From: Deltaproteobacteria bacterium
GTDB taxonomy: Bacteria > Desulfobacterota > BSN033 > UBA1163
Direction of reading: 5' to 3'
Length of the DNA: 52,937 nt
Assembly: GCA_018333535.1 (NCBI GenBank)
Contig: JAGXTA010000010.1
Span: 1 to 52,937 of the forward strand
The notes beneath the pieces are model-generated. The model did no database searches and was not told where the DNA came from. It saw only the letters and a list, made by a program, of their open reading frames with translations. Positions 32,508 through 52,710 of this stretch are shown here, in pieces. The translations under genes were made by a program, and so were the position numbers. Position 1 is the first letter of the stretch. Each line of letters begins with the position of its first letter.

Positions 32508-32528
32508 AAAAATTGGCGCCCTGTGCCT

Positions 32529-34705: not shown

Positions 34706-34756
34706 ATTAAGTTATGCATAGTCGAAACAGGTTTTTAGCGATTGTTCCGGATATAA

Positions 34757-34895
34757 ATCCAAAGCACGAATTTCGAAATCCGAAACAATACCAAATGACC
34801 AAATTTCAAATGTTTGGAAAAAGTTTTTAATAATTTGAATTTCGGAAATTCGAGTTTGTTTCGTGCTTCGATATTCGAATTTCGGATTTTTAATC
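34757..34895. repeat. Facing heptanucleotide arrays between iorA and iorB
   Basis: In the left arm CG recurs every seven bases (CGAATTT, CGAAATC, CGAAACA from 34767). The right arm shows the same rhythm on the other strand (TTTCGTG, CTTCGAT, ATTCGAA, TTTCGGA at 34859-34886). The arms share reverse-complement words such as GTTTCG and TTTCGGATTT, so the whole is an imperfect inverted repeat. Confidence 0.65.
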
Positions 34896-34944
34896 AAGGG
34901 CTGTTTGGGTCTGGTTACGCAAGATGGTAAAAGAGGCCATATCG

Positions 34945-37079: not shown

Positions 37080-37619
37080 TTATTGAAGTTTTTCTAATTC
37101 CTGTTTTTTTAGTTCCTTGATCTTTTCTAATGTGTCCCTGTATATGTGGTCCTTTAATGGGTTGAGTTCGATTGCCCTCAAGGCATATCTTTCTGCCACA
37201 TCGAGTTTTTCACGCTTAATATAATAAAGCCAGGCGAGATTGTTATGGGCATCGGCATTCCGGGGGTCCTTCTTGATCATTTTTTTATAGTAGGTTTCTG
37301 CTTCGCCAAACTCATTTTTCAAAAAATGAGCGTTTCCAAGATAATGATAGGCGATCGTGAGTTTTTTAGCAGCCAGTTTATATTCTTGAATGGCAGAATC
37401 GAGCAGGCCCTTTTTCTCATAGGCCAATCCGAGATTTAAATGTTCTTCAGGAGTAAGCGGGTCCTTCAGGACGACGATCTTCGGCAGAGAGCAATTAGGA
37501 AAAAGCATCAGTACAAAAATGCCCAAGAGAAGGGCAGATAATATCCTCCATTTGACTATTGCGTGATTGCTTGTTATCGGGGGGTGATCAAAAGTGTCCA
37601 GAATTTCTTTCTCTTCCAT
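37080..37619 (-). CDS. TPR-repeat protein linked to the C39-like peptidase
   Basis: 179 residues. A hydrophobic segment near residues 25-42 ends in LFPNCS, a possible lipobox or membrane anchor. Then come TPR units: TPEEHLNLGLAYEKKG, a central IAYHYLGNAHFLKNEFGEAE, and NADAHNNLAWLYYIK. It overlaps the end of the peptidase gene by 46 bases. In PA2778-type proteins of Pseudomonas the C39-like peptidase and TPR part are one polypeptide. Here they are split between two overlapping frames, through either natural fission or an old frameshift. It probably acts with the peptidase in the envelope. Confidence 0.7.
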   Translation of the reverse strand: MEEKEILDTFDHPPITSNHAIVKWRILSALLLGIFVLMLFPNCSLPKIVVLKDPLTPEEHLNLGLAYEKKGLLDSAIQEYKLAAKKLTIAYHYLGNAHFLKNEFGEAETYYKKMIKKDPRNADAHNNLAWLYYIKREKLDVAERYALRAIELNPLKDHIYRDTLEKIKELKKQELEKLQ

Positions 37620-38098
37620 GATTTAATAAAATCCTTCAGTGAGATGGCCTTGAATCGTTCCCTACCGGAATTGGCAATGATGCCCTTTTCGTCATAACCC
37701 ACCACCACCATAAAATGGTTCTGCTGGTATACCCAGAAACCATAATCGACCAAGACAATGAGGGGGAACCCCAAGTCAATCTTATCCTTCAGGTCTTTCA
37801 CAGAGCCTTCATAGGAATCAGCCTTTAGGCCTTTTTTCTCCGCGTATAAGAGCATATCGATATTGAGCGTCCCTTTTGCTGACGGGCTGAATATTTCAAT
37901 GGCAATTTCTTCGGGGCTGACCGGAGTCCCCCAATAATTCAACACGCCCGCAAGGGAGGCGGGGCCGCACTGGTAGGTCTCCTGGGGAAAAAACGGGACG
38001 TCTTTAATAAGATGAAGAGATTTAACCCCTTTTAAATGGGGAGTGACCGCACAGGAAGATAAACAAGTTAAGGCCAAAAAGATGAAGGAGAGGCGCAC
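37574..38098 (-). CDS. C39-like cysteine peptidase lipoprotein (PA2778 family)
   Basis: GTG 38098 gives 174 residues with a lipoprotein signal (VRLSFIFLALTCLSSC). GGGGAGG lies upstream at a rather long spacing. The longer frame to 38248 runs back into the PA2779-like gene and has no ribosome site. The catalytic pattern is C39/papain-like: Cys in YQCGPASLAGVLNYWG near residue 45, His in QNHFMVVVGYD near 130 and a following Asn in IIANSG. PA2778/PA2779 pairs are conserved in proteobacteria, but the biological role is not established. The order PA2779-like, peptidase, TPR on this strand suggests one transcript. Confidence 0.75.
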   Translation of the reverse strand: MRLSFIFLALTCLSSCAVTPHLKGVKSLHLIKDVPFFPQETYQCGPASLAGVLNYWGTPVSPEEIAIEIFSPSAKGTLNIDMLLYAEKKGLKADSYEGSVKDLKDKIDLGFPLIVLVDYGFWVYQQNHFMVVVGYDEKGIIANSGRERFKAISLKDFIKSWKRKKFWTLLITPR

Positions 38099-38151
38099 CC
38101 ATTTGAGAGCGCCTCCCCAGAAATAACTTTCTGACAAAATAAGTTCCCTTG

Positions 38152-38550
38152 CTATTTCTCTTTTTCGATGACAACCCGGTGTCCCGAAACATAAATAACG
38201 ACACCGATGATGATGGCGATTAACAAGATGACAATAAGCACGGCCCAACCGCTGCCACCCACCTGGAGTTGATCGAGGTTGAGGGCCAGTTGATGGATCT
38301 GATGGTCGCGGAGTTGGGTTAATCTCTTTTCAATCTCATCAGGAGTGAAACCCAGATCCCTCAGCCTTTCTTCCACCATCTTCATCTCAAGCACCTTTCG
38401 AATCTTCTCAAGATCGGAAGACCGATCGAAAGATAGCATTGAAATGGCCTCGGAAGGGGAGAATCCTGCATAGACCCTCGGTGTGATGCCAATGATGAAC
38501 ATGGCCACCACCAAATAGCATGCAACATACTTCATCCACGATGGTTTCAC
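38152..38550 (-). CDS. PA2779 family small membrane protein
   Basis: A 132-residue protein with an N-terminal export signal (MKYVACYLVVAMFIIGITP), a central helical part (SPSEAISMLSFDRSSDLEKI, KRLTQLRDHQIHQLA) and a C-terminal membrane span near residues 100-122. This is the arrangement of PA2779-type proteins. The start is GTG 38550 behind AAAGGAGA. It is the first gene of the run PA2779-like, peptidase, TPR. Function unknown; it is conserved next to the peptidase and may anchor or control it. Confidence 0.75.
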   Translation of the reverse strand: MKPSWMKYVACYLVVAMFIIGITPRVYAGFSPSEAISMLSFDRSSDLEKIRKVLEMKMVEERLRDLGFTPDEIEKRLTQLRDHQIHQLALNLDQLQVGGSGWAVLIVILLIAIIIGVVIYVSGHRVVIEKEK

Positions 38551-38625: not shown

Positions 38626-39456
38626 CTACTCTACTAATCCCTCAAGGAGTCCTTTCAGGTAGCCGATGGAGCGGCTGGCGATGGTCTGAGGGTCGGGGCT
38701 GAAATTGAAGACCTCCACGGAGATGTAGCCTTTATAACCATTTTTGAGCAATGTTTTTAGGATCGGTGCGAATTTCGTCTCGCCAAAGCCGGGGCCCGAT
38801 CCATTGGCGTCATTGACATGGACATGGCGGAGATACCCGGAGTCGAGAGCCTGGAGGAGGGCGCCTGTCAATGACTTCTCAGAGGCGAAGGCGCTCTTGC
38901 AGTCAAAGGTCATCTTCAAATTGGGATGCCGCACCTCTTTGACAAATCGGGTTGCATCCTTGATGGTATTGATAAAATTGGTCTGGTCGGGAGAGAGGGG
39001 TTCGAGGCAGTAGAAGACATTTCTCTGCCGGGCGGCCTTCAGGGAAACCTTGAACGTCTCGATAGCGTAATCCCAGGAATTCTTGGCGTTCCATCCCTCC
39101 TTGACGGTCCTCTGATGGGGTGAACCGTGGACGAGGACTTTCCCTCCGATGTCGGCGCAGAAGTGGATGAGGGCTTCGATATATTCCTGGGTCTGGATGC
39201 GGATATATTCGTCAGGGTGATTGATGTAGAGCCCTTCGGGCTTGACGAGAAGCCAGTGAAGGCCGACGATCTCAATTCCGTTGTCCTCTGCGGCACGGCG
39301 GATCGCATTTCGCCTCTTCGTTGATATCTCAGTGACAGAATCGGCCAGCGTGAAGGGTGCGATCTCCACTCCATCGTATCCCAATTTCGCCGCATACTCG
39401 AAGACTCTTTCGATGGGCCATCCCTGAAAAAGCTCATTGCAGATGGAGATCTTCAT
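38626..39456 (-). CDS. Xylose-isomerase-like TIM barrel (sugar phosphate isomerase/epimerase family)
   Basis: 276 residues with an AP-endonuclease-2/xylose-isomerase-like barrel. The metal ligands of the fold are visible: Glu in YCLEPLSPDQTN near residue 148, Asp in MTFDCKSAF near 183, His in HVHVNDANG near 210 and Glu in YISVEVFNF near 247. This set is shared with hexulose-6-phosphate 3-epimerase-type and inosose-dehydratase-type enzymes, so the substrate is open. It overlaps the end of the MttB gene by four bases, so it is the last gene of the tctCBA-mttB operon. Part of its 3' end was copied to 36892-37045. Confidence 0.85.
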   Translation of the reverse strand: MKISICNELFQGWPIERVFEYAAKLGYDGVEIAPFTLADSVTEISTKRRNAIRRAAEDNGIEIVGLHWLLVKPEGLYINHPDEYIRIQTQEYIEALIHFCADIGGKVLVHGSPHQRTVKEGWNAKNSWDYAIETFKVSLKAARQRNVFYCLEPLSPDQTNFINTIKDATRFVKEVRHPNLKMTFDCKSAFASEKSLTGALLQALDSGYLRHVHVNDANGSGPGFGETKFAPILKTLLKNGYKGYISVEVFNFSPDPQTIASRSIGYLKGLLEGLVE

Positions 39457-40871
39457 GTGATTCTCTCTAAACCCTTTTTTTCGATCCGTTCAAGCTTTTC
39501 TCTCTGTGATCCGCTCAAATGTTCGATGGGAGGATTATTTAATAACATTTTAACACGTTCCTTTGCCACTTCAAGCAATTCTTTTTTGCCCGCCGTTTCC
39601 CAGACCGTCCACCGTTCACGGCTCAAGAGGTCGGTGAGGCGCAACTCGTTTTTGAAATGCCTGAGGGTATGTTCACTCGAAAGATAGTCTCCCTTCTGTC
39701 CCATCTCTTTGATCAGAGGGAGAGCCATCCGTTCCTCATCCATTTCGATTCCCTTAAAGGCACGGAGAATCCCTGCTGCAATTTCATTATCCATGATGGC
39801 CTGCTCCGGGCAGAGAGAGAGGGTGGATTCGAGATTTCCGATTCCCCATATGAGATTGACTCCTCCGAGGCCATGCAGAAGCCCGAGAAGCGTTTTTTCA
39901 TAGGCAGCCTGGGCGTCCGGGATCTTGGATTCGGTGTTCATCCAGGAGGCTGATGGGAGATGGTGAAAATGGGCGATGGCGCTTCCCGCAGCCCCCAACA
40001 GTCCGCCCTCCGGCGCACCGGTCAGAGTTTCCGCAACTTTCATGTCGAAGGTATGAGAGAAACCGAGATTGAAGACAACTGGCCGGCCGGGTTCGAGGAG
40101 TTGGGCAATCACCACTCCGCTCAATGCCTCTGCATTGGCAAGGACAAGCGACCCTGCGAGCGTCACCGGACCGGTTGCTCCTGAGATGACCTCCGAATTG
40201 ATCATGAGGGGAATTCCGTATCCGGAAGATACACGGAAGACCTCCAGGGCTGAATCTGACCAGCGGAGAGGGCTGACGCAAGTAAAACCGAGGCTGAAAA
40301 TGGGATGATTCTTCAAAGACTTTCCGTTGAGAAGAACGTCCGCCATTTCAAGGATGACCTCTATCCCTTTGGGTGTGAAGATGACAGGGCGAAGATGTTT
40401 TTGGGTATATTCCGCCATTGCCCGGAAACCCACAAAGTCTCTGGCCGAGGGAGGGTAATCCGAAAGATTGGTTCCCACAATGGCGTGGAGATGAGGCAGG
40501 TGATCTGCCACACGACAGAACTCTGTGTAGAGTTCCCTGGTTAATTCTCTCCTCTCCGGTCCACGAAGATAGAACATGGCGTTTCCTGTCCAGAAGAGGG
40601 GAGGAGCACCGGGTTTTACCTTTACCCTATTTCCCTTCAAGTCCATAAAGTCAATGGACCGGGGCGCCTTTTTGAGCGATGCTTCTATCAGATCGGGAGG
40701 GAAAAGAAGAGCGAAATCGTTTCCCTCTTTTGCCCCGGCTTCGAGGAGGAGAGACCGGATTTCCGGATGGGTAATCTTGACACCGGTCCCGGAGAGGACC
40801 TCCAGGCTCGATTCATGGATTGACTGAATCTCTTTTTTTGATAAAAACCCTTCGATTCTTCTCTCTCTCAT
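39453..40871 (-). CDS. MttB-family (non-pyrrolysine) trimethylamine/betaine methyltransferase-like protein
   Basis: 472 residues, matching the MttB superfamily: IHESSLEVLSGTGVKITHPEIR at the start, the FWTGNAMFYLR segment near 97 and INSEVISGATGPVTLAGSLVLANAEALSG near residues 228-256. There is no in-frame TAG, so it lacks pyrrolysine, like the MtgB/MtpB enzymes that demethylate glycine betaine or proline betaine. Those enzymes need a corrinoid protein and a methyltetrahydrofolate methyltransferase, and neither is found here. It sits after tctA with a 17-base gap, which suggests that the transported compound, possibly a methylated amine or betaine, is its substrate. Confidence 0.85.
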   Translation of the reverse strand: MRERRIEGFLSKKEIQSIHESSLEVLSGTGVKITHPEIRSLLLEAGAKEGNDFALLFPPDLIEASLKKAPRSIDFMDLKGNRVKVKPGAPPLFWTGNAMFYLRGPERRELTRELYTEFCRVADHLPHLHAIVGTNLSDYPPSARDFVGFRAMAEYTQKHLRPVIFTPKGIEVILEMADVLLNGKSLKNHPIFSLGFTCVSPLRWSDSALEVFRVSSGYGIPLMINSEVISGATGPVTLAGSLVLANAEALSGVVIAQLLEPGRPVVFNLGFSHTFDMKVAETLTGAPEGGLLGAAGSAIAHFHHLPSASWMNTESKIPDAQAAYEKTLLGLLHGLGGVNLIWGIGNLESTLSLCPEQAIMDNEIAAGILRAFKGIEMDEERMALPLIKEMGQKGDYLSSEHTLRHFKNELRLTDLLSRERWTVWETAGKKELLEVAKERVKMLLNNPPIEHLSGSQREKLERIEKKGLERIT

Positions 40872-40888
40872 GGAAATTGCTTCTCCCT

Positions 40889-42418
40889 CTACTTCTTCTT
40901 TCGGCGGATGCCAAGGGTTCGGGACACCGTCTCCCGGCTCTCGCTCATCATGCTTTTGAAATGTTGGCTCCGGGTCATTATGGTCAGAGCAATGAGAATG
41001 ATGAGAACGATGCAGATGGGGCGGGTCAGGAGGGGGATGATAGAACCCGATGTCAGCATGAGACTTCTCCGGAGGTTTTCGTCCAGCATATCCCCAAGGA
41101 TGAGGCCGAGAATGAGAGGGGCGTCAGCATACTCCATCTTCCTCACCCCGTAACCGATGATTCCGAAGATCAGCATGACCAGGATGTCAAAGATCCTTCC
41201 GCTGATGGCAAAAGAACCAATGGCACACAGGACAAAGACGATCGGCATCAGGATTGCATTCTTGATATTTAAGATTTTCACCATGGTTCTGACCATGGAA
41301 AGACCCAGAATCAGCATGGCAAAGGTGGCCATCAGGAACATGGCCGAGACCTCATAGATATAGTTCGGTGTTTCGATCATGAGCAGTGGCCCCGGCCTTA
41401 CTCCATGAAGCCACATGGCTGCCATCAGAACCGCAGCCGGAGGGCTTCCCGGGACGGCCAGCGCCAGTACAGGAATGATTGCACCGCCCACACAGGCGTT
41501 GTTGGCGGTCTCTGCGGCGATGAGCCCCTCTTCAGACCCTTTTCCGAATTTCTCAGGATTTTTACTTGCCCGATGGGCAAAATCATAGGCGATATAGGAG
41601 GCAATATTCTCTCCCACTCCTGGGATGGCGCCCACAATGACACCTGTAATCCCGGATCGGACGATATTTTTTCGGTTAATCCAGAGGTCTCTCAGTCTGG
41701 GAATGACCCGCTTGATCTGTATCGGCTTTTCCTGCTTCCGGATTTCAGAGAGGGAACTCAGAACTTCAGGGACGCCATAAAGTCCGACCAGGGCGGGGAT
41801 AAGGGAAAGCCCTCCGGAGAGCTGGATGCTTCCAAAGGTAAACCTTGGGTAGGCCTGGATCACATCCATTCCGATCGTCGCAAGAAAGAGGCCGAAGACC
41901 CCTGACATCCACCCTTTGAGCGGATCTTTCGGAGCGGTCAGGTTGCCACAGATGATCACCCCGAAGAGACTCAACCAGAAGAATTCAAAAGACCTGAACT
42001 CAAGAGCGATCCGACCCAGCCAGGGAGTGAAGAAAGACAGAAAGAAAAGGGCGATGATCGAGCCCAGAAATGAGGCAGTTGTGGCAAGGCCGATGGCCTC
42101 TCCTGCGCGGCCGCTCCGTGCCAGCGGGTAGCCATCAAAAACCGTGGCTGCCGCTGCCGGGGTTCCCGGGATATTAACAAGAATGGCTGAACGACTTCCC
42201 CCGTAGATGGCCCCGATATACATGCAGATGAGGATGAGAATGGCGTCCTTAGTGGCCCACTGAAAGGTCAACCCGGTCAGGAGGGCGATTCCCATCGTGG
42301 CCGTGAGGCCGGGCATCATTCCGACCATGATCCCGAGAAGTGTCGCCCAGAAGACCTCGAAGAGGATGGAGGGGGTCATCAAATTCCACAATTCTTGCAT
42401 CAGGATAACAGGACCCAT
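40889..42418 (-). CDS. tctA: Tripartite tricarboxylate transporter, large membrane subunit (TctA), second system
   Basis: 509 residues with about twelve membrane spans. TctA marks: GMMPGLTATMGIALLTGLTFQW near residue 33, GSRSAILVNIPGTPAAAATVFDGYP near 75 and GAIPGVGENIASYIAYDFAHRA near 262. GAAGGAG precedes the ATG. It is the third gene of the minus-strand order tctC-tctB-tctA. It is clearly a different system from the one at 26350 and has a different set of catabolic partners. Confidence 0.92.
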   Translation of the reverse strand: MGPVILMQELWNLMTPSILFEVFWATLLGIMVGMMPGLTATMGIALLTGLTFQWATKDAILILICMYIGAIYGGSRSAILVNIPGTPAAAATVFDGYPLARSGRAGEAIGLATTASFLGSIIALFFLSFFTPWLGRIALEFRSFEFFWLSLFGVIICGNLTAPKDPLKGWMSGVFGLFLATIGMDVIQAYPRFTFGSIQLSGGLSLIPALVGLYGVPEVLSSLSEIRKQEKPIQIKRVIPRLRDLWINRKNIVRSGITGVIVGAIPGVGENIASYIAYDFAHRASKNPEKFGKGSEEGLIAAETANNACVGGAIIPVLALAVPGSPPAAVLMAAMWLHGVRPGPLLMIETPNYIYEVSAMFLMATFAMLILGLSMVRTMVKILNIKNAILMPIVFVLCAIGSFAISGRIFDILVMLIFGIIGYGVRKMEYADAPLILGLILGDMLDENLRRSLMLTSGSIIPLLTRPICIVLIILIALTIMTRSQHFKSMMSESRETVSRTLGIRRKKK

Positions 42419-42431
42419 TCAACATACTCCT

Positions 42432-42914
42432 TCAGGGAAGTGGGACAAGGAAAACCCTTATAAAGATCAAGTAGACGGCCAGGGAGGTGGCTGCGGATAT
42501 GATGAGAGCGATATACCACTTGCCTTGGCCGAAGATAATGATGGACAAAAAAAGATAAAGGGCCGTATTGATCATGAATGGAATGCGACCCAGGAGGAGA
42601 TAATAGAGGATGAAAAGCCCAAAGCAGATGAAAATCCGGACTACCACCGTAGAGCGAAAGAAGAGCCCCAGCCCTTCCCGCGAGATTCGAACGAGGTGTC
42701 CCTGCCTTCTCAGCGAACGGGTCAACAGGTAACTGCTCATGAGAAAGAGGGTGAGCCCCAGAAGAAAGGGAACAAAACCGGGATTTGAATAGATCCCTCC
42801 CCACTCCGGAAATCTCGGGAACTTGAACACGGTGTAAATCATGATGAGGAGCGAAAATAGGATGAGGAAAATCGAGGTGATGAAATCGGCCTTGGCCAAG
42901 TGCTTTTCATCCAT
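42432..42914 (-). CDS. tctB: Tripartite tricarboxylate transporter, small membrane subunit (TctB), second system
   Basis: 160 residues with four hydrophobic spans, about residues 12-30, 45-62, 85-110 and 130-152, and the early GFVPFLLGLTLFLMSSYL segment expected for TctB/DUF1468. It lies between tctC and tctA with short gaps. AGGGG precedes the ATG. Assignment rests on membrane pattern and position. Confidence 0.85.
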   Translation of the reverse strand: MDEKHLAKADFITSIFLILFSLLIMIYTVFKFPRFPEWGGIYSNPGFVPFLLGLTLFLMSSYLLTRSLRRQGHLVRISREGLGLFFRSTVVVRIFICFGLFILYYLLLGRIPFMINTALYLFLSIIIFGQGKWYIALIISAATSLAVYLIFIRVFLVPLP

Positions 42915-42999
42915 TGCCAGACCCCTGGAGATAGAATAGAAAGCAGGGATTCCCCTTGATCAGCGGAAATCCCTGCGAAAAGATTCCTTCTTTTACGGA

Positions 43000-44001
43000 T
43001 CAGGGTTTCTTAAAACCAAACTCAGCCGGCGACTTTTTCGCCTGACCAATATCCTGGAACATCCAGTTGACAATTGACCCAATGCTTTCGATGGCTTCAT
43101 CCGCCTCCTTGCCGCGGATGTTCACAGCCTTACAGGCCTTCTGGTCGGCTAATCGTTTAAGTGATTCCGATTGGCTTGCCTTATCGAAGGCGTCGTCAAT
43201 GACCTTCTTTGCTCCCTCAGGAATACCTTTCGGGATCTGGAGGCCAAAGAGGTAACCGAGAGGGAGGTGATTCGGGATGAATTTCATGACAGGAGGGATT
43301 TCTCCATAGCCGGAGATCACCAGCGGGTCTTTTGACATGACGGCAAGGGCTTTCAGTTTTTTTGCCCTGAGCATATCCGCCACTTCCAGCGAGAGCTGCA
43401 TGACGGCGTCCGTTTCTCCCTGAACGGTAGCCACCACAGCAGGATAACCGCCTTTATATGGGATATGTTTATATTCGATGCCCGTTGCCTTCCTGAATGT
43501 TTCAGCCGCTGCATGACCGCCTGCTCCAACGCCGGCCGAAGCCACCTTCACCTCGCCAGGCCTTTTTTTCATTTCGGCTGCCAGGTCAAGAACAGAGTTG
43601 AACTTGGAATCTGCCGGAACGGTGATGACAATGGGGGTGAAGATGGCGTAATAGTGAAGCCAATCTTTGTGAGAGGGATAATCGAGAAGTCCCAGGGTCT
43701 GATAGGTCACAACGCTTCCGTCCGCGTTTCCAGCCCAGGTATAGCCATCATGTTTGGCATCGTAAACTCCCTTCTGGCCGATGGAGCCAGAACCACCCGG
43801 TTGATTGACTACAGCGATCTTCTGACCCAAGGACTTTTCCATTTCTCCTGCAAGAACCCGCGCAGTCTGGTCGGAAGCGCCTCCTGCCGCCCAAGGCACG
43901 ATGAGCGAGATTGGCCTCTCAAATTTGAACTGGGCCGAGGCTAATGTGGCCGAGAATACGACGAACAACCCAACAACAACGCACAATTTCCAACTTCTCA
44001 T
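43000..44001 (-). CDS. tctC: Tripartite tricarboxylate transporter, periplasmic receptor (TctC), second system
   Basis: 333 residues with a signal peptide (MRSWKLCVVVGLFVVFSATLAS), then the receptor motifs ISLIVPWAAGGASDQTARVL near residue 31, VVNQPGGSGSIG near 58 and the HIPYKGGYPAVVATVQGE block near 180. GAGGAGG lies six bases before the ATG, and a good promoter is seen upstream. It is the first gene of the second Tct operon. The ligand is unknown; the linked MttB gene points to a quaternary amine or other methylated carboxylate. Confidence 0.92.
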   Translation of the reverse strand: MRSWKLCVVVGLFVVFSATLASAQFKFERPISLIVPWAAGGASDQTARVLAGEMEKSLGQKIAVVNQPGGSGSIGQKGVYDAKHDGYTWAGNADGSVVTYQTLGLLDYPSHKDWLHYYAIFTPIVITVPADSKFNSVLDLAAEMKKRPGEVKVASAGVGAGGHAAAETFRKATGIEYKHIPYKGGYPAVVATVQGETDAVMQLSLEVADMLRAKKLKALAVMSKDPLVISGYGEIPPVMKFIPNHLPLGYLFGLQIPKGIPEGAKKVIDDAFDKASQSESLKRLADQKACKAVNIRGKEADEAIESIGSIVNWMFQDIGQAKKSPAEFGFKKP

Positions 44002-44042
44002 AAATTCCTCCTCACTGAAAGTATTTGAAAACAGTTAACGGC

Positions 44043-44070
44043 ATTGTATAATGTTCTTAAAAATTGTCAA
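44043..44070 (-). promoter_or_regulatory. Promoter of the tctCBA-mttB operon
   Basis: On the minus strand, TTGACA (44070-44065), a 16-bp spacer and TACAAT (44048-44043). Transcription would begin about 35 bases before the tctC ATG. It lies in the 110-bp divergent gap with nagB. Confidence 0.6.
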
Positions 44071-44111
44071 GAGTATAAAACCATCCCAAATTGGATAGAG
44101 GAGAAAAAGCG

Positions 44112-44915
44112 ATGGAGAAAGGTTGTTTCATCGCAGATCAATTAAAGGTGCAGATTTTCGAGAGCAGAAAAACGATGGGAAAGGCAGCAGGCCAGGCGGT
44201 GGCTAAAAAGATGAGAGAGATGCTGAAGGAGAAGGAAGAACTTGTCATGGTTTTTGCCGCCGCCCCATCCCAGAATGAATTTTTGGAAGAATTAAGCAAA
44301 AGTCGGGGCGTGGACTGGAAGAGGGTGGCCGCTTTTCATCTTGATGAATATGTGGGTCTCCCTAACACAGCTCCTCAGAATTTCGGACAGTATTTGCGGA
44401 AACAATTGTTCGATCAAGTCCGTCCCGGGAAGGTTCACTACCTGAATGGAATGGCCGAAGATCCTGAGGCTGAGTGTGATCGTTATGCCGCTCTTCTCCG
44501 ACAGAATCCAATCGATATCGCCTGCATCGGGATCGGAGAGAATGGTCATCTTGCTTTTAATGACCCGCCGGTTGCGGATTTTGATGATCCGAAGCCGGTC
44601 AAGGTCGTTGAATTGGATTTGACTTCGAGACAACAACAGGTGAACGACGGCTGTTTTCAAATTCTGGAAGAAGTTCCAAAGAAAGCGATGACCCTCACCC
44701 TTCCGACGATTTTTTCAGCGAGATTCATTTACTGCATCGTTCCAGGTTCCCAAAAGGCCGAAGCGGTGAAAAAGACATTGGAGGGGCCGATCGCTCCCGT
44801 CTGTCCGGCGAGCATTTTAAGGAAACATGGAGATGCCACTCTTTTTATGGATCAAGATTCAGCAAAAGGAATTTCGGATTTAAGAGCGCGAATTGGAGAT
44901 TTAAGGCGATCATGA
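44112..44915 (+). CDS. nagB: Glucosamine-6-phosphate deaminase
   Basis: Converts glucosamine-6-phosphate to fructose-6-phosphate and ammonia. ATG 44112 follows AGAGGAGA and gives 267 residues, the family's usual size; an upstream TTG at 44091 has no site. The motifs are AAAPSQNEFLEEL near residue 50 (sugar-phosphate loop), the catalytic Asp region FHLDEYVGLP near 77, and GIGENGHLAFNDPP near 138 with the catalytic His and Glu. The phosphate loop reads AAAPSQ where E. coli NagB has GGTP, so a related amino sugar is possible. The stop overlaps the nagA start (ATGA). Confidence 0.88.
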   Translation: MEKGCFIADQLKVQIFESRKTMGKAAGQAVAKKMREMLKEKEELVMVFAAAPSQNEFLEELSKSRGVDWKRVAAFHLDEYVGLPNTAPQNFGQYLRKQLFDQVRPGKVHYLNGMAEDPEAECDRYAALLRQNPIDIACIGIGENGHLAFNDPPVADFDDPKPVKVVELDLTSRQQQVNDGCFQILEEVPKKAMTLTLPTIFSARFIYCIVPGSQKAEAVKKTLEGPIAPVCPASILRKHGDATLFMDQDSAKGISDLRARIGDLRRS

Positions 44916-46054
44916 TCATTCAAGGTAAGCTACCTGGAACTGAGAACCCTGTAAATGTCACCATTGAAGGAGGAATAATCTCCCGTATTGAACCCTTCAG
45001 GGAAGGAACTTTGCATCATTTTGGAGGGCCTGATCTCTATATATGTCCCGGTTTTTTCGATCCCCAGGTGAATGGTTTTGCAGGGGTGGATTTCAATGGA
45101 AAGGGTTTGACCCCCGAGAGAATCCTACGGGCCGTTCAATGCCTTGCCCTTTCCGGGGTGACTCGTTTCCTCCCGACACTCATTACTGCCACTCATGAAA
45201 AGATAGAACGGCAGCTAAAAATTCTTACAAGCGCCCTGGAATGCAATTCTCTTCTTCGGAGGATGATTCCAGGGATTCACCTCGAAGGACCGTATATTTC
45301 TCCTGAGGATGGTCCAAGAGGAGCTCACCCCCGTGAGGCGGTTCGGCATCCTGATTGGGAGGAGTTCAAGAGATTTCAAGAGGTATGCAATGGGAAAATC
45401 AAGTGCATCACCCTGGCCCCGGAGATGGAGGGAGCGATCCCTTTTATTGAAAAGGCCGTGGCCAATGGCATTGTCGTGGGGTTGGGACATACCAATGCTT
45501 CTGAAACAGTCTTTGAGGATGCTCTTAGCGCAGGAGCGCGTCTCTCCATTCACCTGGGCAACGGAACCCCCGCGTTCATACCCAGACATCAAAACCCCAT
45601 CCAGAAACAGTTGTCGATGGATGGGCTGATGGCATCCATCATCGTAGACGGAATCCATCTTCCGGATTATGTGGTGAAAAACTTCGTCCGCGCCAAAGGG
45701 ATCGAACGAATCCTGCTGACGACCGATTCCATGGCCGGGGCAGGGGCTCCTCCTGGAAAATATACACTGGGTGACCTGGAGGTAGAGGTCGGGCCTGATC
45801 GGGCAGTCCGCTTTGCCGGAACGCCCTACCTTGCAGGGTCGACATTGAGCATGGAAAGGGCGATCAACAATATCATCCGTTTTGCCGGCGTCGATCTAAT
45901 GGATGCACTTCAGATGGCAAGAAAAAACGGTGAAAAAGTGTTTCCCGAGATTGGTGGGGAGATCATTTCGGGTAGTCCTGCTGATATCGTCCTTTTCGAG
46001 TATAAGGATGAAATGAGGGTCAAAGCGACCTGGGTTAACGGAGAAAAAATATAA
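44912..46054 (+). CDS. nagA: N-acetylglucosamine-6-phosphate deacetylase
   Basis: An amidohydrolase of 380 residues whose ATG overlaps the nagB stop. NagA marks: CPGFFDPQVNGFAGVDFNG near residue 45 (where NagA has Gln in place of the H-x-H pair), the metal Glu in IHLEGPYISPEDG near 118, His in VGLGHTNASE near 188, His in SIHLGNG near 210 and the catalytic Asp in LTTDSMAGAGAPPG near 270. It produces the substrate for NagB, so the two genes form a complete entry into glycolysis. No transporter or kinase for the sugar is in the window. A heptanucleotide array begins at its stop codon. Confidence 0.9.
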   Translation: MIIQGKLPGTENPVNVTIEGGIISRIEPFREGTLHHFGGPDLYICPGFFDPQVNGFAGVDFNGKGLTPERILRAVQCLALSGVTRFLPTLITATHEKIERQLKILTSALECNSLLRRMIPGIHLEGPYISPEDGPRGAHPREAVRHPDWEEFKRFQEVCNGKIKCITLAPEMEGAIPFIEKAVANGIVVGLGHTNASETVFEDALSAGARLSIHLGNGTPAFIPRHQNPIQKQLSMDGLMASIIVDGIHLPDYVVKNFVRAKGIERILLTTDSMAGAGAPPGKYTLGDLEVEVGPDRAVRFAGTPYLAGSTLSMERAINNIIRFAGVDLMDALQMARKNGEKVFPEIGGEIISGSPADIVLFEYKDEMRVKATWVNGEKI

Positions 46055-46136: not shown

Positions 46137-47324
46137 ATGGAAAAGGTTAGAGTCGGGATCGTGGGGTCGCAGTTTGCCGCCCACCTTCATCTTAACAACT
46201 ATGCAAAGCTGAGGGGCTCAAAGATGGAGATCCTCGGGATCGCTTCAAAGACCGAAAAGAACGCCCGGGAAACGGCCAGGCAGTTCAACATTCCATCGGT
46301 CTATACGGATTATCGCAAACTTCTGGAAAGGAAGGACATCGATGTGATTGACCTCTGCATCCCTAACAATCTCCATGAGGAGATGGTCATCGCCTCGGCA
46401 GAGGCGGGAAAGCATATCATCTGTGAGAAACCCCTGACCGGGTACTTCGGGGAGGAGATCGAGGGGGAAGACATTGGATTCAGGATATCTAAGGATGTGA
46501 TGCTCCGTAGTGCAATGGAGAGCTGCGCCAGGATCAGGAAGGCGATTGAGAAGAGCCGCATCCTGTTCTGCTATGCCGAGGACTGGGTCTATGCGCCTTC
46601 GGTGGAAAAGATGAAAAGAATTGTTAAGGTGAGCGGTGGGACCATCATGGACATACGGGCCGAAGAAAGCCATTCGGGTTCCCACGCTGCCTACTCACGG
46701 AAATGGAAGACCTCCGGTGGCGGGGCCCTCCTCCGGCTGGGTTGCCATCCGATCGGAGCAGCTATCTACCTCAAGTATTTCGAAGGCGAGCTACGGGATG
46801 GAAAGCCCATCCGGCCAAAATATGTAACCGCAGAGGTAGGACAGCATACCCGGATTCCCTCCTTTCAAAGAGAACCAAAGAAATGGCTGGTCACTTTATC
46901 GGAGGACGTGGAAGACTGGTCTGCCGTCATCATCACCTTCGAGGACAACTCCAAGGCGTCCATTTTTGCATCGGATGGGGTCCTGGGTGGAACCCGGAAC
47001 ACGATGCAGGTCTATCTCTCGAATGCGGTGGCCTTCGCCAACATCAATCCCAATAATGCGGTTGAGGTCTACGCTCCGGATCCGAAGATCTTTGGGGACG
47101 AGTACATTTCGGAAAAGCTCGAGACGAAAGCGGGGTGGAACTTTGCCAGCCCCGATGAAGACTGGATGAGAGGGTTTCCGCAGGAGCTGGAGGACTTCAT
47201 TGATAGTATCCTCAAGGGAAAGGAACCGGTATCCGGTTTGAGACTGGCCGAGGATACGATGGAAGTCGTCTATGCCTCCTATCTTTCGGCAGAGAAGGGC
47301 CAGAGAATCCAGCTTACCTCTTAG
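46137..47324 (+). CDS. Gfo/Idh/MocA family oxidoreductase
   Basis: 395 residues behind an excellent AAAGGAGG. The N-terminal NAD(P)-binding fold starts VRVGIVGSQFAAHLHLNNYA. The family lysine lies in HIICEKPLTG near residue 97, and the second domain has the GGGALLRLGCHPIGAAIYL block near 196, containing the catalytic-type His. Proteins of this family oxidise or epimerise hexoses, inositols and uronates. The chain is slightly longer than usual (about 340-390). It follows nagBA and meets the transaldolase-like gene head on, overlapping it by 11 bases, so transcripts from the two strands may interfere. Confidence 0.87.
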   Translation: MEKVRVGIVGSQFAAHLHLNNYAKLRGSKMEILGIASKTEKNARETARQFNIPSVYTDYRKLLERKDIDVIDLCIPNNLHEEMVIASAEAGKHIICEKPLTGYFGEEIEGEDIGFRISKDVMLRSAMESCARIRKAIEKSRILFCYAEDWVYAPSVEKMKRIVKVSGGTIMDIRAEESHSGSHAAYSRKWKTSGGGALLRLGCHPIGAAIYLKYFEGELRDGKPIRPKYVTAEVGQHTRIPSFQREPKKWLVTLSEDVEDWSAVIITFEDNSKASIFASDGVLGGTRNTMQVYLSNAVAFANINPNNAVEVYAPDPKIFGDEYISEKLETKAGWNFASPDEDWMRGFPQELEDFIDSILKGKEPVSGLRLAEDTMEVVYASYLSAEKGQRIQLTS

Positions 47325-49464
47325 TGGTGGGTCTTTTTTTTGGACGAGAAGCCGAGCCCTTTAAAATAGAAACCATCTCTTTCTGGAAGGTGTCGTAGGC
47401 CCCTTTAAATTCGGCGGAGGTCTTTTGAACAGGGCCAAACTCCGGCCAATCCGATGGGGTTAGGCCTCCGAGGCCAAAGTCCCCTGATATTCCAGCATCT
47501 TTAAAAATGTTAGCCAGCTCCGGGTTGATCTCATAGGCCTTCCGAAAATCTTCCATCTGATTTAGAAGATCGAGGACTTCTCCTGGAAAAGTGTGCGAAA
47601 TGGACTCATTGATCCCTTCCAGGTCAAGCTGAGATGTTTCAGCCATCTTCCTCACGTTTTCCTGATGGTCGGGAAATTCGGTATGGACAAGGTTACGGGA
47701 GGTAAGGGTCCAGTAAGTGTCAAACGGTTTCCTTTTAGAGGCAGGAAGGTAGTGAATTCGGTCCATGATCAGGCGCGCCTGAACTTGGGTTATTCCTTTT
47801 CTATTCATTAAGTAAGCGATCCATTTTTTTCGGTTCTCATCCGAAAAGAAGAGCCCCCAGACCCTTCTTGCCACAAGCGTCCCCGATTTGCCGATCACGT
47901 CCTCCCACTTCTTAAGAAATTCATTAGAAGCGACTTCTTCCAAGGCGTTGAAGATGGGCTCGTTCAAGGTCTTTTGACCATGGGCGAATCGTGTTGCTGC
48001 CAGGACCTTCTCTTCATAACTCTTTGCCCCGGAGACTTTCTCTTTTGTTCCGTTCGCTTCAGAGAGGTGTTCAACCTTCTGAAGGGCTTTCTTTTCGCCA
48101 ACCTTTCTTTTCAATTCTTTGAAGAGTTCTTCGAGCTTGATTTCTCTCAGATGGCTTTCGAGACGTCCGCCCATATTGGTCATATAGAGCTGGGTGGGCC
48201 GGATTCCCTTTTTAATTGCATCAGCCATCCCTTCCATCTCTTCCAGGATGAGGGTGGCTTCCTGGCTGACGCTGTAGTCGACCGTGATGTTTGATCCGAA
48301 GCCAAAGGAGTTGATTGTCCGGGTGATGGTTCTGGCGGCAGGGGTTGTAGCCGCCACTTTGATGACGAGATTGGGCCTTCCTTTCCATCCGTCCATCCGA
48401 TAACCTGCCAGAAGGTACTGGTCATAGAGGGAGAGGTTTTCAGAGGCGAGAGAGAATGCCGCAAATACATCCCGGATGGACTCTTCAACGAGGTGGGCAA
48501 TATTAGGGTTGAGCTGGAAGCTGACGACCCCGCCTCCGGAGATCTCACGGAGGTTGAAGAAGAGGGGGCGGAAGACATGGAGGTTATCCCAGAGGGCGAG
48601 CAGGGTTGCGTAAAGCGTGATCTCATCTCCATATCTGGAGGAATTGGCGGACCAGCGCTTAAAATCAGGATGCCGCTTCACCTCGTTTTGAAAGAGCGTG
48701 GTTAAGGCAGGTTCATCCTGATAAGCCCTTGCGGCCAGAACAGGATTGGTCGAGACCTGCTCAAAGCCGAGATGCCTGAGCCATCTCAAGCCGATGGCGT
48801 AGTCATTGCCGAACTTACAGAATCCCTCTTTCACCATCTGGTAGTAGATATTCTCCTTGATCTCCCTTTCAGCCCTTTTCAAAAATTGGGCGAAGAGATT
48901 CTTCTTAAAATCGATTCCCTCTTCGATCCGGAGGGCTGTTTTGGCGGCCATACTGCTTCCCTTCTGGACCCTCTTCATCTTCGAAAGCCATTTCGAGATC
49001 ACAGCCTCTGCAATCGATCCCTCTCCCTCTTCTCTCTCGCGATCCTCCCACTCCTCCAGAACATTGAGAATGTAGCCAAGGGAGTCTGACTTCTCTTTCT
49101 CGTCAAGCCAACGGCTTTCGAGGCCGTAAAAGTTGAGCGCCATCTCCAGCATGACCTCATAGGAGTATTGTCTGAGACGGATCTTTCGCTCCAATGATTC
49201 ATTCGGTTCATGGAGTCCAGGTCTGGAAAGGGAGAAGAGGAGGTTTAGTTTTCTGATGAAGCCCCCTACGATTTCGGATAACCTTCCATTGATTTCGGGG
49301 AAGAGGAGATGGTCGGAGGCCAGGGTGGTCTGGCCCATCCGGGCAAGGGAGAGGAGATGGGCGACATGGTCATCCGGAATGGGGGGGCTTTCCTTCAGCG
49401 AAAGGCTTTCGGGAAGGCTTAATTCTACGATACGATTGGTGGTTTCATGGGCGGTTGCCTTCAT
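47314..49464 (-). CDS. Very large transaldolase-like protein
   Basis: About 716 residues from ATG 49464 (AAAGGAGAG upstream), twice a normal transaldolase. The middle contains a recognisable Schiff-base barrel: QVSTNPVLAARAY near residue 235, VVSFQLNPNIAHL near 325, NLVIKVAATTPAARTI near 375 with the likely catalytic lysine, and FGFGSNITVDYSVSQ near 396. The N-terminal ~220 and C-terminal ~270 residues match nothing I recognise, and the latter includes a basic tail (SRPKKRPTTKR). Barrel, lysine and asparagine positions fit transaldolase chemistry, which is the transfer of dihydroxyacetone. It is the last gene of the iolB/uxaE-like operon, two bases after the uxaE stop. Confidence 0.65.
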   Translation of the reverse strand: MKATAHETTNRIVELSLPESLSLKESPPIPDDHVAHLLSLARMGQTTLASDHLLFPEINGRLSEIVGGFIRKLNLLFSLSRPGLHEPNESLERKIRLRQYSYEVMLEMALNFYGLESRWLDEKEKSDSLGYILNVLEEWEDREREEGEGSIAEAVISKWLSKMKRVQKGSSMAAKTALRIEEGIDFKKNLFAQFLKRAEREIKENIYYQMVKEGFCKFGNDYAIGLRWLRHLGFEQVSTNPVLAARAYQDEPALTTLFQNEVKRHPDFKRWSANSSRYGDEITLYATLLALWDNLHVFRPLFFNLREISGGGVVSFQLNPNIAHLVEESIRDVFAAFSLASENLSLYDQYLLAGYRMDGWKGRPNLVIKVAATTPAARTITRTINSFGFGSNITVDYSVSQEATLILEEMEGMADAIKKGIRPTQLYMTNMGGRLESHLREIKLEELFKELKRKVGEKKALQKVEHLSEANGTKEKVSGAKSYEEKVLAATRFAHGQKTLNEPIFNALEEVASNEFLKKWEDVIGKSGTLVARRVWGLFFSDENRKKWIAYLMNRKGITQVQARLIMDRIHYLPASKRKPFDTYWTLTSRNLVHTEFPDHQENVRKMAETSQLDLEGINESISHTFPGEVLDLLNQMEDFRKAYEINPELANIFKDAGISGDFGLGGLTPSDWPEFGPVQKTSAEFKGAYDTFQKEMVSILKGSASRPKKRPTTKR

Positions 49465-49466
49465 AT

Positions 49467-50999
49467 TCAATCTCTCCTTTCAACCCCGAGATACTCTAAA
49501 TGTTTTTCAATATGGTTTTCAAGGAGGGAGGCGTAGTCCTCCTCACAGTGGATCAACATCTTAAAAAACCCGCCCCTCAATTCGCTCTTCAGTAAAAAGC
49601 CATACGTAATATGAAGAAGCTGCCTGGCGTTTTCCTGATCGAGGAGGCCGGGAAGCTCCGAGTCAATGAGATCTTTGGTTGGGGGGATACGGGAGAGGTC
49701 TGTCGTCACATGATACTGTTTGGAAGCCTCCCCGAATGAGGACAAAGCCTCTTGATGCATCTCCCGGTAGAGGGAAGGGTCCTTCAGGCTGATGAGGCGG
49801 ACGGCTTCAAGCCAGCTTGTCCCTGCTGTTTTAAGATGGATTTTTCCCTGAGAGATCTCGCCGATATCCGGAAAGATTGAAAACTTATCGCTTCCCGAGT
49901 GGATGGAGAGCTTATAATTCCCGTAATGCTGGCTGATGAGGACATGGCGATAGAACTTCTCCCTGAAGGCCGCCGCCTCTCCCCGGTAATCGATTCCTTT
50001 CTGAAACTCACCGATGAAGCGGGGCGCAAGGGAATCGATCCGGACCCCCCTGTGGCGGAGAGCGATCATCAGGAAGAGATGGGTCTCCGGAGAGGTGGGA
50101 AAGGGGATTTCGTCGATGGAAATCTCAAAATCGATGAGAGGTTTTCTACCTGTGCGCCGGATAAGAAATTGATGGACCTCCTCTGAAAAGTCAATGGCCT
50201 GATGAAAGAGAAGGACATGTCGCTTTACTTCTTCCTCTGAAAACCGGATGGAGAGATCGCCGCGTGAGCCACTGAATCTAAATTCCTTATCGAGGAAGAG
50301 ATGGAGGAGGACTTCTGCATCGCCTGGGTCGATCTCCTCCTTGAATCTTTGCCCGACGACTTCCCCTGGAAGTGAAAAAGCTTCGAAATTTAATTTTTCT
50401 GAGAGATCGAGCGTGATCATGGAGACGCCCGCATCAATAGCCAGTTTCACCTCATCCAGAGACTTCAGATGGTCTCCGTCCGCACCGTAGCCTTCCTGGT
50501 AGTTCTCCTGAAAGACGGACCAGGCCGCATCTGCGATAACCTCTTTATAATTTCTGCCAGTCTGGCCATTCTCGCGGATCGACTGTTGGGCAAAAACAGG
50601 CCGAACTTTAAATTTTCTGACTGCACGGATGTGGCCGGAAGTGGCCAGACCGAGACGGTCTCCGGTTCCGATGGTCGCAGGGTAATTGAGGACGGAGACC
50701 GGCCGGGTAAAAGGGAAGAGTTCCATAAGAAGGAGGGTATTTTCCGTGGAGAGACCGCACACCTTGAGCGAAGGGGCGTGATGAAGGATTTTCCCTTTAA
50801 AAGAATCCTTAAAAAGAGTTTCCTTTTCACCAAGGATGATCAACTTCTTGCCCTGGTCTGTTCGAATCATTCCATAGAGTAACCCGTTCATTGAACAGAA
50901 GGATTGGGGATAGATCTTTTGGAAGTTTAGGGGAAAGACTTGAAGGATTTTTAATATCTCTTCCGAGGAAGGAATCCGGCTCGATTCAATCGATGTCAT
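49467..50999 (-). CDS. Tagaturonate/fructuronate epimerase-like protein (UxaE family)
   Basis: 510 residues resembling UxaE, the C4 epimerase that interconverts D-tagaturonate and D-fructuronate in Thermotoga. The strongest block runs from residue 108: PATIGTGDRLGLATSGHIRAV, then RPVFAQQSIRENGQTGRNYKEV, and GYGADGDHLKSLDEVKLAIDAG near 168, which includes likely metal-binding Asp/His. A later histidine pair is seen in IHSGSDKFSIFPDIG near 367. The gene begins 14 bases inside the end of the IolB-like gene and ends next to the transaldolase-like gene, so the three work together. The substrate may be a related ketouronate. Confidence 0.78.
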   Translation of the reverse strand: MTSIESSRIPSSEEILKILQVFPLNFQKIYPQSFCSMNGLLYGMIRTDQGKKLIILGEKETLFKDSFKGKILHHAPSLKVCGLSTENTLLLMELFPFTRPVSVLNYPATIGTGDRLGLATSGHIRAVRKFKVRPVFAQQSIRENGQTGRNYKEVIADAAWSVFQENYQEGYGADGDHLKSLDEVKLAIDAGVSMITLDLSEKLNFEAFSLPGEVVGQRFKEEIDPGDAEVLLHLFLDKEFRFSGSRGDLSIRFSEEEVKRHVLLFHQAIDFSEEVHQFLIRRTGRKPLIDFEISIDEIPFPTSPETHLFLMIALRHRGVRIDSLAPRFIGEFQKGIDYRGEAAAFREKFYRHVLISQHYGNYKLSIHSGSDKFSIFPDIGEISQGKIHLKTAGTSWLEAVRLISLKDPSLYREMHQEALSSFGEASKQYHVTTDLSRIPPTKDLIDSELPGLLDQENARQLLHITYGFLLKSELRGGFFKMLIHCEEDYASLLENHIEKHLEYLGVERRD

Positions 51000-51999
51000 A
51001 CCCTTTTTCTCTCAGCATTGCGAATAAGAGGTTTTTCTGCTCACCCGTAAAAGGGTAGGGCTCACACATTCTATCGAAATCATTTTTTGGAATGGCCTTC
51101 TTCCGATCCTCTTCAAGAGTTTTAAAAATTTCTTCGAAGGACTTAAGATGAACGAACTCTGGGATATCCCTCATCGCCAGTTCTTCACCCTTTCCAGCTA
51201 GGCCCCACAAGTAGAGAAGCTCGGACACAGGGGAAGCAACAACAGGGTGGCACCCTCCTGGAATGGCGAAGATGCTTTTCTCTCCAATAAGATAAACCTT
51301 GTTCATCCTTTTTCCATCCATTAAGATTTGAACCCCATACGGTCCAAATTGGTCCCTCGGATTCTTTTTCAAGTTGAAACGGTGGTAATAGACCTCTTCA
51401 TGATCTGACTCACCTGATTGGAATTGATCCTTATCGTGCTGATGGAGCGGCGTGCCAGACCAGAAACCCGGAGGGCTATAGGTCTCTCCGACAACCAGAT
51501 TGGAGCTTGCATCCTTTGGACTGATCAGGGGAGTGATATCCCTGCGCCAGATCCAGTTTCCTCTCGACACGACTTTCACTTCCTGGGCCGGAAGGTAGAA
51601 GGGAGGTTTTTCTTTGAGGGCAGGGGCCTCAAAGAAAGCAATCTCCCCTTTTCCTCTCATTTTTAACCTGGAATCGCAGGGGATATAGAGTGCAGAGGCA
51701 TTGGATCGACCAGGCCCACAGGAGAAAGGGCCGCCCTTTCTCTCCCCGGAGAATATCTTTCCGTTGATCTCTGCCTCAAATCTTCCCTCCTGAGGGACGA
51801 GGACCATCTCCTTCTCTTTCGTGTTCTTTGTGACGAAATCGGATTTGAGTTGATAGATTCCGAATCCTAAGATCTGGAGGGGGACCTCTTCTTTTCGAGG
51901 GTCCAGGATGAGTCCGCTCCTCTTTCCATTATATCGAATATGTGGATTCACCCGGTTCATTTCAATCCGAATGGCATATTTCTTTACGGTGCTTTCCAT
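50986..51999 (-). CDS. IolB-like (5-deoxy-glucuronate isomerase family) cupin protein
   Basis: 337 residues from ATG 51999, which has GGAGG eight bases upstream. The frame to 52029 would start inside the promoter's -10 box. The IolB pattern is clear in the C-terminal cupin: VVGETYSPPGFWSG near residue 180, PLHQHDKDQFQSGESDHEEVYYHRF near 195-219 with the metal-binding His and Glu, and IPGGCHPVVASP near 258. Myo-inositol IolB is about 270 residues, and this protein has an extra ~60 residues at the C-terminus. No other iol gene is nearby, so a different sugar acid is likely. It probably isomerises an aldose acid to a ketose acid ahead of the UxaE-like epimerase. Confidence 0.8.
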   Translation of the reverse strand: MESTVKKYAIRIEMNRVNPHIRYNGKRSGLILDPRKEEVPLQILGFGIYQLKSDFVTKNTKEKEMVLVPQEGRFEAEINGKIFSGERKGGPFSCGPGRSNASALYIPCDSRLKMRGKGEIAFFEAPALKEKPPFYLPAQEVKVVSRGNWIWRRDITPLISPKDASSNLVVGETYSPPGFWSGTPLHQHDKDQFQSGESDHEEVYYHRFNLKKNPRDQFGPYGVQILMDGKRMNKVYLIGEKSIFAIPGGCHPVVASPVSELLYLWGLAGKGEELAMRDIPEFVHLKSFEEIFKTLEEDRKKAIPKNDFDRMCEPYPFTGEQKNLLFAMLREKGYDID

Positions 52000-52027
52000 T
52001 TTGAGTCCTCCGAATAAAAGTTGCCCC

Positions 52028-52117: not shown

Positions 52118-52213
52118 GGGGTTGGAAAACCCCATCTACCGAGGAATGAAGAAAATGATGGAAGTGAGTTAAATCCCGATAGGCGGGGCCTGCTGCAGGT
52201 CCAACCCCGCCTA
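52118..52213. repeat. REP-like hairpins at the 5' end of the RAYT gene
   Basis: Hairpin GGGGTT-GGAA-AACCCC (52118-52133). A larger hairpin follows, TAGGCGGGG (52180-52188) facing CCCCGCCTA (52205-52213), enclosing CCTGC-T-GCAGG (52189-52199). The last base of the stem is the A of an in-frame ATG. The GGCGGGG core recurs in 29172-29269. Confidence 0.75.
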
Positions 52214-52221
52214 TGAGATTG

Positions 52222-52710
52222 ATGATGCCAAAGCTTAAACACATTAACATAGAAGAATATCCTTATTTGGTAACAACGGTTACTCTTAAAAGAAAACCGA
52301 TATTCGCAAGCCCTGATGCGGCAAATATCGTATTGGAAGCCATATTGTTTGGGAAAAAACAGAAATGGTATTATCTTTTATCGTTTGTTATAATGCCTGA
52401 CCATATCCACTTCATTATCATTCCAAAAGGAAAAAACATTTCAGAATGCGTGAAATCGATTAAGGGATATTCGGCAAGACGAATCAATTCCGTATTGGGG
52501 GAAAAGGGTTCCATTTGGCAAAGCGGGTTTTATGATTACATCCTTGAGAGTGAGGAGAAAGTATTAAGTAGGATGAGATACATAGAGGATAATCCGGTGA
52601 GAAAAGGCATGGTCGCATATCCGGAAGATTACAAGTTCAATTCAGTAAATTACAGGGAAGAGACAGATTTAAAAGAATATTTTTGGTTCTTCCGGGTTTT
52701 TAATGGGTGA
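52222..52710 (+). CDS. REP-associated tyrosine transposase (Y1/IS200-like, RAYT)
   Basis: About 162 residues. The HUH motif is intact: FVIMPDHIHFIIIP near residue 60 gives H-x-H. The catalytic tyrosine follows in IKGYSARRINSVLG near 85. The C-terminal helix carries YIEDNPVRKGMVAYPEDYKFNS, standard in RAYTs. The frame opens at ATG 52213, but that codon sits in the stem of the REP hairpin, so ATG 52222 or 52225 is preferred. The protein would nick at REP-type hairpins. The 3' end runs into the left end of an ISL3 element, so the natural stop may have been changed. Confidence 0.85.
   Translation: MMPKLKHINIEEYPYLVTTVTLKRKPIFASPDAANIVLEAILFGKKQKWYYLLSFVIMPDHIHFIIIPKGKNISECVKSIKGYSARRINSVLGEKGSIWQSGFYDYILESEEKVLSRMRYIEDNPVRKGMVAYPEDYKFNSVNYREETDLKEYFWFFRVFNG

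Follow-up and report, generated by a model that had tools for sequence, protein, structure and literature searches.

A UxaE and transaldolase-like operon of uncultured Desulfobacterota, with a possible role in the cleavage of ketohexuronates

The question raised by this locus is whether a transaldolase-like enzyme takes part in the breakdown of hexuronates. The window, which is the whole stretch of 52,937 nucleotides analysed here, carries on its minus strand an operon of three overlapping genes (47314–51999): an IolB/KduI-like gene (50986–51999, 337 residues), uxaE (49467–50999, 510 residues) and a giant transaldolase-like gene, called TAL here (47314–49470, 718 residues). The IolB-like and uxaE genes overlap by 14 nt, and uxaE and TAL by 4 nt; both overlaps are kept in relatives. 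The ATG of the first gene at 51999 stands behind a GGAGG Shine–Dalgarno sequence (52007–52011, minus strand), and the alternative start of a longer IolB-like frame, at 52029, falls within the −10 box. This box belongs to a sigma-70-type promoter, TTGACA-N18-TATAAT (52057–52028, minus strand), which matches the consensus at 12 of 12 positions, and the promoter block recurs 5′ of the orthologous iolB-like gene in the loci L011, L012 and L020. The sequence-only reading had described three overlapping or abutting genes under one strong promoter, and the overlaps and the promoter bear this out. As the gene order recurs across the GTDB family of the window and in a second phylum with divergent partners, the three-gene operon is real and not a chance arrangement. 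A gene for a Y1 transposase (IS200/REP type, 52213–52710) is located directly upstream of the operon promoter, and a 94% identical copy is located upstream of uxaE in L018 (7235–7711).

The second gene encodes a full-length member of the UxaE (tagaturonate/fructuronate epimerase) family, for which epimerase activity is predicted. The protein matches PF16257 with E = 4.9e-161 over profile positions 1–475 of 475, and the Cohnella UxaE structure 6ilb with E = 1.1e-122. A short PF16257 subfamily of about 415 residues, 27–28% identical to the UxaE of the window, was observed in NC10 (L025:8523–9380 and L059:7782–9032); it has no match among the curated NCBIfam models.

The product of the first gene had been read as IolB-like. 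It belongs to the KduI/IolB superfamily (PF04962, E = 5.5e-42, 144 bits against a cut-off of 23.9), and like the KduI/IolB isomerases it retains the cupin metal ligands HxH...E...H, according to an alignment with 2qjv. It falls outside the IolB equivalog, however. The protein scores 115.5 bits on the IolB equivalog model (NCBIfam TIGR04378), for which the cut-off is 205 bits, and its orthologue in G237 scores 112 bits. Unlike KduI and IolB, it is encoded with UxaE–TAL or with KdgK–Eda and not in a full iol cluster. The related proteins are 58–89% identical to each other and share about 25–30% identity with those NC10 IolB/KduI proteins that could be aligned, and the motif LHxHD...HEE[VI]YYHRF...GGCHPV is preserved throughout. 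By these comparisons, the first gene represents a separate clade of the superfamily, distinct from the IolB equivalog. Ten genomes of the family were tested for both isomerases: the IolB-like gene was found in five, UxaC in two, neither in three and both in none. The fact that the two never occur together suggests that the IolB-like protein is a hexuronate isomerase. It is likely to act as such, and we infer that it is a non-homologous replacement of UxaC. A precedent is the KduI of E. coli, which in extracts converts galacturonate and glucuronate or lowers their amounts (PMC3578941).

The TAL protein shares several features with the transaldolase/FSA superfamily (PF00923): the fold, the Schiff-base lysine, the TNP and NxT motifs and an Arg near the phosphate site. 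It differs in a helical N-terminal part of about 200 residues, in long insertions, in two substituted catalytic positions (Glu96 to Gln and Phe178 to Met, in TalB numbering) and in the absence of a curated subfamily match. Against PF00923 (TAL_FSA), the protein of the window gives E = 4.1e-4 and 20.2 bits, below the 27-bit cut-off; its orthologues in G045, G279 and G298 exceed the cut-off. Its best score among the curated NCBIfam transaldolase models is 20 bits against a cut-off of 367 (NF002881). Searches of PDB sequences with the protein or its profile gave the transaldolase 3r5e as the best match, with non-significant E values (0.78 and 0.034). The protein consists of a predicted helical N-terminal part (about residues 1–206) and a divergent transaldolase fold (about 222–704); in Pfam, neither its first 198 nor its last 276 residues had a significant match. 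Two structure models were prepared, both of low confidence (pLDDT 58.8 for the first, with 8 close sequences, and 57.5 for the second, with 19 rows), so that only the fold, and no active-site geometry, was taken from them. In the VIA fold search, the full-length model from orthologues only gave 3r5e at rank 1 (Z 8.2, rmsd 6.3 Å, 247 residues spanning 227–704), and the domain model with three canonical rows aligned gave transaldolases as the top matches (3r5e, Z 12.8, rmsd 4.9 Å, 263 residues). The modelled fold is the transaldolase (β/α)8 fold. Judged by its sequence, TAL is an undescribed and uncurated family of the transaldolase superfamily. Other PF00923 genes were detected in all 10 family genomes tested (in G000, the genome of the window, as open frames of 383, 404, 217 and 224 residues). 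Given these ordinary small transaldolases in the same genomes, a housekeeping transaldolase function as the sole role of TAL was ruled out.

The catalytic residues indicate which chemistry may be expected. The TNP, VSFQL (canonical VSxEV), VIKVAA and NIT (canonical NVT) motifs are in register with those of canonical transaldolases, and K371 in VIKVAA corresponds to the Schiff-base lysine in the profile alignment. K371, N242, N394, T396 and R436 are invariant in 16 of 16 TAL members from two phyla. Thus the lysine, for which the sequence-only reading had proposed an alignment check, is in place. The transaldolase mechanism assumed there needs to be modified, since the catalytic Glu is not kept: the position of TalB Glu96 is Gln319 in all 16 members. 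The position of TalB Phe178 is Met433, also in 16 of 16, in a column aligned by hand. With both residues replaced, the TAL sequences differ from transaldolase proper (EC 2.2.1.2). Gln at the acid–base Glu site is the state of the fructose-6-phosphate aldolases (FSA). The PDB entries TalB E96Q, TalB E96Q/F178Y and FSA Q59E are among the structure-search matches, and the substitution Phe178Tyr turns TalB from a transaldolase into an aldolase (PMC3962226). As Glu96 is replaced by Gln throughout the family, it cannot be taken for granted that dihydroxyacetone (DHA) is handed on to a sugar phosphate; TAL may instead perform plain aldol cleavage.

TAL has a narrow distribution. In a sample of 297 genomes of the phylum, 8 carry it, all of them in the family of the window, and within this GTDB family it is present in 12 of 17 genomes. 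When 84,980 species genomes were scanned with two exact peptide patterns, which remote homologues may escape, 13 TAL loci were obtained, located in MAGs of Deltaproteobacteria/Syntrophaceae/Thermodesulfobacteriota, in uncultured bins matching family contigs and in NC10. In each TAL-bearing family genome (12/12), uxaE is the upstream neighbour of TAL, overlapping or side by side, and TAL without UxaE was never seen in the family. The iolB-like gene lies upstream of uxaE in six genomes (G000, G192, G215, G045, G393 and G394). Five of 95 NC10 genomes carry TAL, which is about 60% identical to that of the window's family. The NC10 homologue of UxaE, only 27–28% identical, adjoins TAL in L025 and L059 and lies about 6 kb away in L061. 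At the TAL locus of G302, UxaE was not found within the stretch examined. A divergent GntR-FCD regulator gene and TRAP transporter genes are present at the NC10 TAL in L025, L029 and L059, the call for L059 being based on sequence likeness to L025 and L029. Thus co-location of the homologues in other genomes, also proposed earlier as a check, was observed in the family and in NC10, and this recurrence with divergent partners is the strongest evidence that UxaE and TAL are functionally linked. Among the family genomes lacking TAL, G167 has UxaE and an IolO-like gene, G397 has IolB-like and IolO-like genes at the same site, and G237 is without both UxaE and TAL. As G167 keeps UxaE and IolO in the absence of TAL, the hub works without TAL.

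Involvement of the operon in hexuronate metabolism is well supported by the gene contexts. In G279, the operon has the order zinc alcohol dehydrogenase (ZnADH), 2-hydroxyacid dehydrogenase (2HADH), UxaE, TAL and UxaC, with 4-nt overlaps from UxaE through UxaC, and the UxaC exceeds the NCBIfam equivalog cut-off (498 against 387 bits). A second locus encodes a KDG-kinase-like protein (KdgK), Eda, a LarA-like protein, ZnADH and 2HADH. It is present in G000 itself (L098:311–5596, contig C96) and, complete or partial, in L099, L101, L126, L129, L130 and L133, and its Eda is over the NCBIfam cut-off. This KDG locus carries TRAP/TTT transporter genes and Gfo/Idh/MocA paralogues, terminates in UxaC in G007 and contains an IolB-like orthologue in G237 and G396. 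One downstream gene flanks it alike in G007, G237 and G279, and in G279 uxaE–TAL appears to sit inside the KDG locus; this placing rests on synteny, with a contig break before ZnADH and two contigs that have no exact end overlap. LarA-family proteins are racemases or epimerases, and a LarA-family nickel racemase is unusual in a hexuronate context. The UxaC in the G279 operon, the mutual replacement of IolB-like protein and UxaC, and the KdgK–Eda locus strengthen the hexuronate assignment. To this extent the uronate pathway suggested from the sequence stands; the KDG arm is also present, and TAL as the sole exit is not established.

The same locus leads to a different explanation, which we regard as possible but doubtful: the operon would be the isomerase and epimerase front end of a KDG pathway finished by KdgK, Eda, LarA, ZnADH and 2HADH, and TAL would be accessory or act on another substrate, e.g. 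in recycling DHA or pentose-phosphate intermediates. The occurrence of the five genes together in G000 and its relatives is consistent with this, as are the isomerase genes within the cluster, and the UxaE of Thermotoga joins the two KDG branches (PMC6353982). The known dehydratases, however, are missing in most genomes. UxuA was found in none of the 10 family genomes examined for it, and UxaA was missing from 15 of 17; in G000 (97% complete) neither was found by PF03786 and PF04295; in most family genomes the KDG locus is without a recognised aldonate dehydratase. A front-end role also leaves the constant pairing of TAL and UxaE, including the divergent NC10 UxaE, unexplained. As G000 has KdgK, Eda, ZnADH and LarA elsewhere, ketouronates may leave by the KDG arm, and a partly conventional route may coexist.

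The explanation we prefer, tentatively and at somewhat less than an even chance, is that the operon forms a ketohexuronate-cleaving branch of hexuronate catabolism. In the first step, the IolB/KduI-like protein would isomerise D-glucuronate or D-galacturonate to D-fructuronate or D-tagaturonate in the place of UxaC. UxaE, according to its family membership, would then interconvert tagaturonate and fructuronate and deliver fructuronate from tagaturonate. Transaldolase donors have the fructose configuration (3S,4R). Among the ketouronates considered here, this points to D-fructuronate, and cleavage between C3 and C4 would give a DHA unit and tartronate semialdehyde. Thus K371 of TAL would form a Schiff base with D-fructuronate, cleave the C3–C4 bond and free tartronate semialdehyde, and the DHA unit would be either transferred onto a sugar phosphate to form fructose-6-phosphate or freed as dihydroxyacetone, as FSA-type aldolases do. 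We consider this transaldolase-type cleavage of fructuronate plausible, with slightly less confidence than the branch as a whole; the main reservations are the replacement of the catalytic Glu by Gln and the existence of a KDG arm. Isomerisation by a KduI/IolB-type enzyme, epimerisation to D-fructuronate and cleavage by the large TAL would together make a third bacterial hexuronate route beside the isomerase (KDG) and oxidative ones, and the carboxylate equivalent of sulfo-TAL, a proposal that we likewise put forward with caution.

An enzyme for the three-carbon product is not present in the operon of the window, and a weak candidate of the Hyi/IolO family is nearby. Among the genes adjacent to the operon, no tartronate-semialdehyde reductase and no DHA kinase was found. 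A 2HADH is encoded in the G279 operon, and a MOFRL glycerate kinase is present in every TAL-bearing genome of the family; these two would be candidates to finish the three-carbon piece. The MOFRL kinase is also present in relatives lacking TAL, so its co-occurrence with TAL is uninformative.

Further neighbours suggest additional inputs. An IolO/tagatose-3-epimerase-like TIM barrel (PF01261) is encoded at 38626–39456 (minus strand), parted from TAL in the window by an inserted block. In six relatives (G045, G081, G111, G007, G392 and G395; loci L012, L013, L014, L015, L028 and L065), the gene is located directly 3′ of TAL. The protein shares PF01261 with the IolO/LguG 5-keto-L-gluconate epimerases and scores below the IolO equivalog cut-off (NF041099, 106 against 300 bits). 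It matches the structure of TM_0416 with E = 8.5e-16, and D-psicose/tagatose 3-epimerases are similar. IolO-type enzymes produce D-tagaturonate (PMC12632266), the substrate of UxaE, which fits this neighbour; acting beside the keto group, the IolO-like protein could feed 5-keto-L-gluconate into tagaturonate. A Gfo/Idh/MocA (IolG-superfamily) oxidoreductase gene (46137–47324, plus strand) is convergent with TAL and is conserved beside it in L010, L011 and L017/L063. The earlier statement that no uxaB, uxaC or iol genes accompany the operon is correct for uxaC and uxaB in the stretch of the window examined, but the IolO-like and Gfo/Idh/MocA genes are nearby, and in relatives the statement fails, as an IolO-like gene or UxaC directly follows TAL.

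The block between these two neighbours (39453–46054) is a probable insertion, since the flanking Gfo/Idh/MocA and IolO-like genes adjoin each other in L010. It contains genes for an MTTB-family methyltransferase, a TctA/TctC-type tripartite tricarboxylate transporter and NagB/NagA-like proteins. The methyltransferase gene has no in-frame stop, hence it is not of the pyrrolysine type. At 37080–38248, a C39-family peptidase and a TPR protein are encoded, and in L010 too these are neighbours of the IolO-like gene. At 31356–35568, indolepyruvate:ferredoxin oxidoreductase subunits and an F420-hydrogenase FrhB-like protein are encoded, conserved beside the uronate locus in L010, L012, L018 and L028.

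The IolO-like and Gfo/Idh/MocA genes beside TAL also suggest that the substrates are 5-ketoaldonates derived from inositol or L-sugars, which Gfo/Idh/MocA, ZnADH and IolO-like proteins would convert to D-tagaturonate, or else neutral ketohexoses; TAL would then cleave the product. The ZnADH resembles the scyllo-inosose dehydrogenase IolM (2e-65, under the cut-off), and the L-glucose route of Luteolibacter passes through 5-keto-L-gluconate and tagaturonate (PMC12632266). However, the UxaC in the G279 operon indicates aldohexuronates and the IolB-like clade also occurs in the KDG locus, and we consider these substrates improbable. The synthetic direction, in which TAL would condense a carboxylated aldehyde with a DHA unit to ketouronates, which would then be converted by epimerisation and isomerisation to the uronates of surface glycans, is very improbable. 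In principle each of the three reactions could run backwards, and the operon of the window's family is without an uptake system. Uronates are usually made from UDP-sugars, however, the genes lie in a catabolic locus in G279, and the TRAP transporters and GntR-FCD regulators at the NC10 loci and the TRAP/TTT transporter genes in the KDG locus also speak against synthesis.

The ketohexuronate-cleaving scheme can be compared with two known systems. The hexuronate isomerase pathway of Thermotoga maritima (UxaC–UxaB–UxaA/UxuB–UxuA–KdgK–KdgA), with UxaE, shares with the present genomes the UxaE member, the UxaC in the operon of one relative, and KdgK and Eda in the second locus. Here, in contrast, UxuA is absent and UxaA nearly so, the IolB/KduI-like protein would replace UxaC, and the regular partner of UxaE is a transaldolase-like enzyme. 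In the sulfo-TAL pathway of sulfoquinovose (SqvD and SqvA/SftT), the logic is like that proposed here: an aldose acid is converted to a ketose acid, and transaldolase cleavage gives a three-carbon acidic aldehyde. The parallel with this pathway drawn from the sequence would hold in outline, isomerase followed by transaldolase, but the operon is not a member of it. The isomerase SqvD belongs to the FucI family (PMC9594981), whereas that of the operon belongs to the KduI/IolB superfamily. BmSF-TAL has about 220 residues, whereas TAL, three times as long and very divergent, is of another subfamily. The operon has an extra 4-epimerase, and the acid would be a carboxylate and not a sulfonate. The hexuronate-pathway review distinguishes an isomerase route, an oxidative route and those of fungi and animals, and its consulted passages name no transaldolase step (PMC6353982). 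A search of the literature outside the subscription journals found no transaldolase route for uronates.

Even if the substrate is another one, these genomes contain an uncurated family of the transaldolase superfamily with an altered acid–base residue, and a probable hexuronate isomerase other than UxaC. If the proposed cleavage is true, uncultured bacteria of the anaerobe type would have a route of uronic-acid breakdown that uses neither the textbook dehydratases nor KDG kinase, and transaldolase cleavage of acidic sugars would be a general strategy, not specific to sulfosugars.
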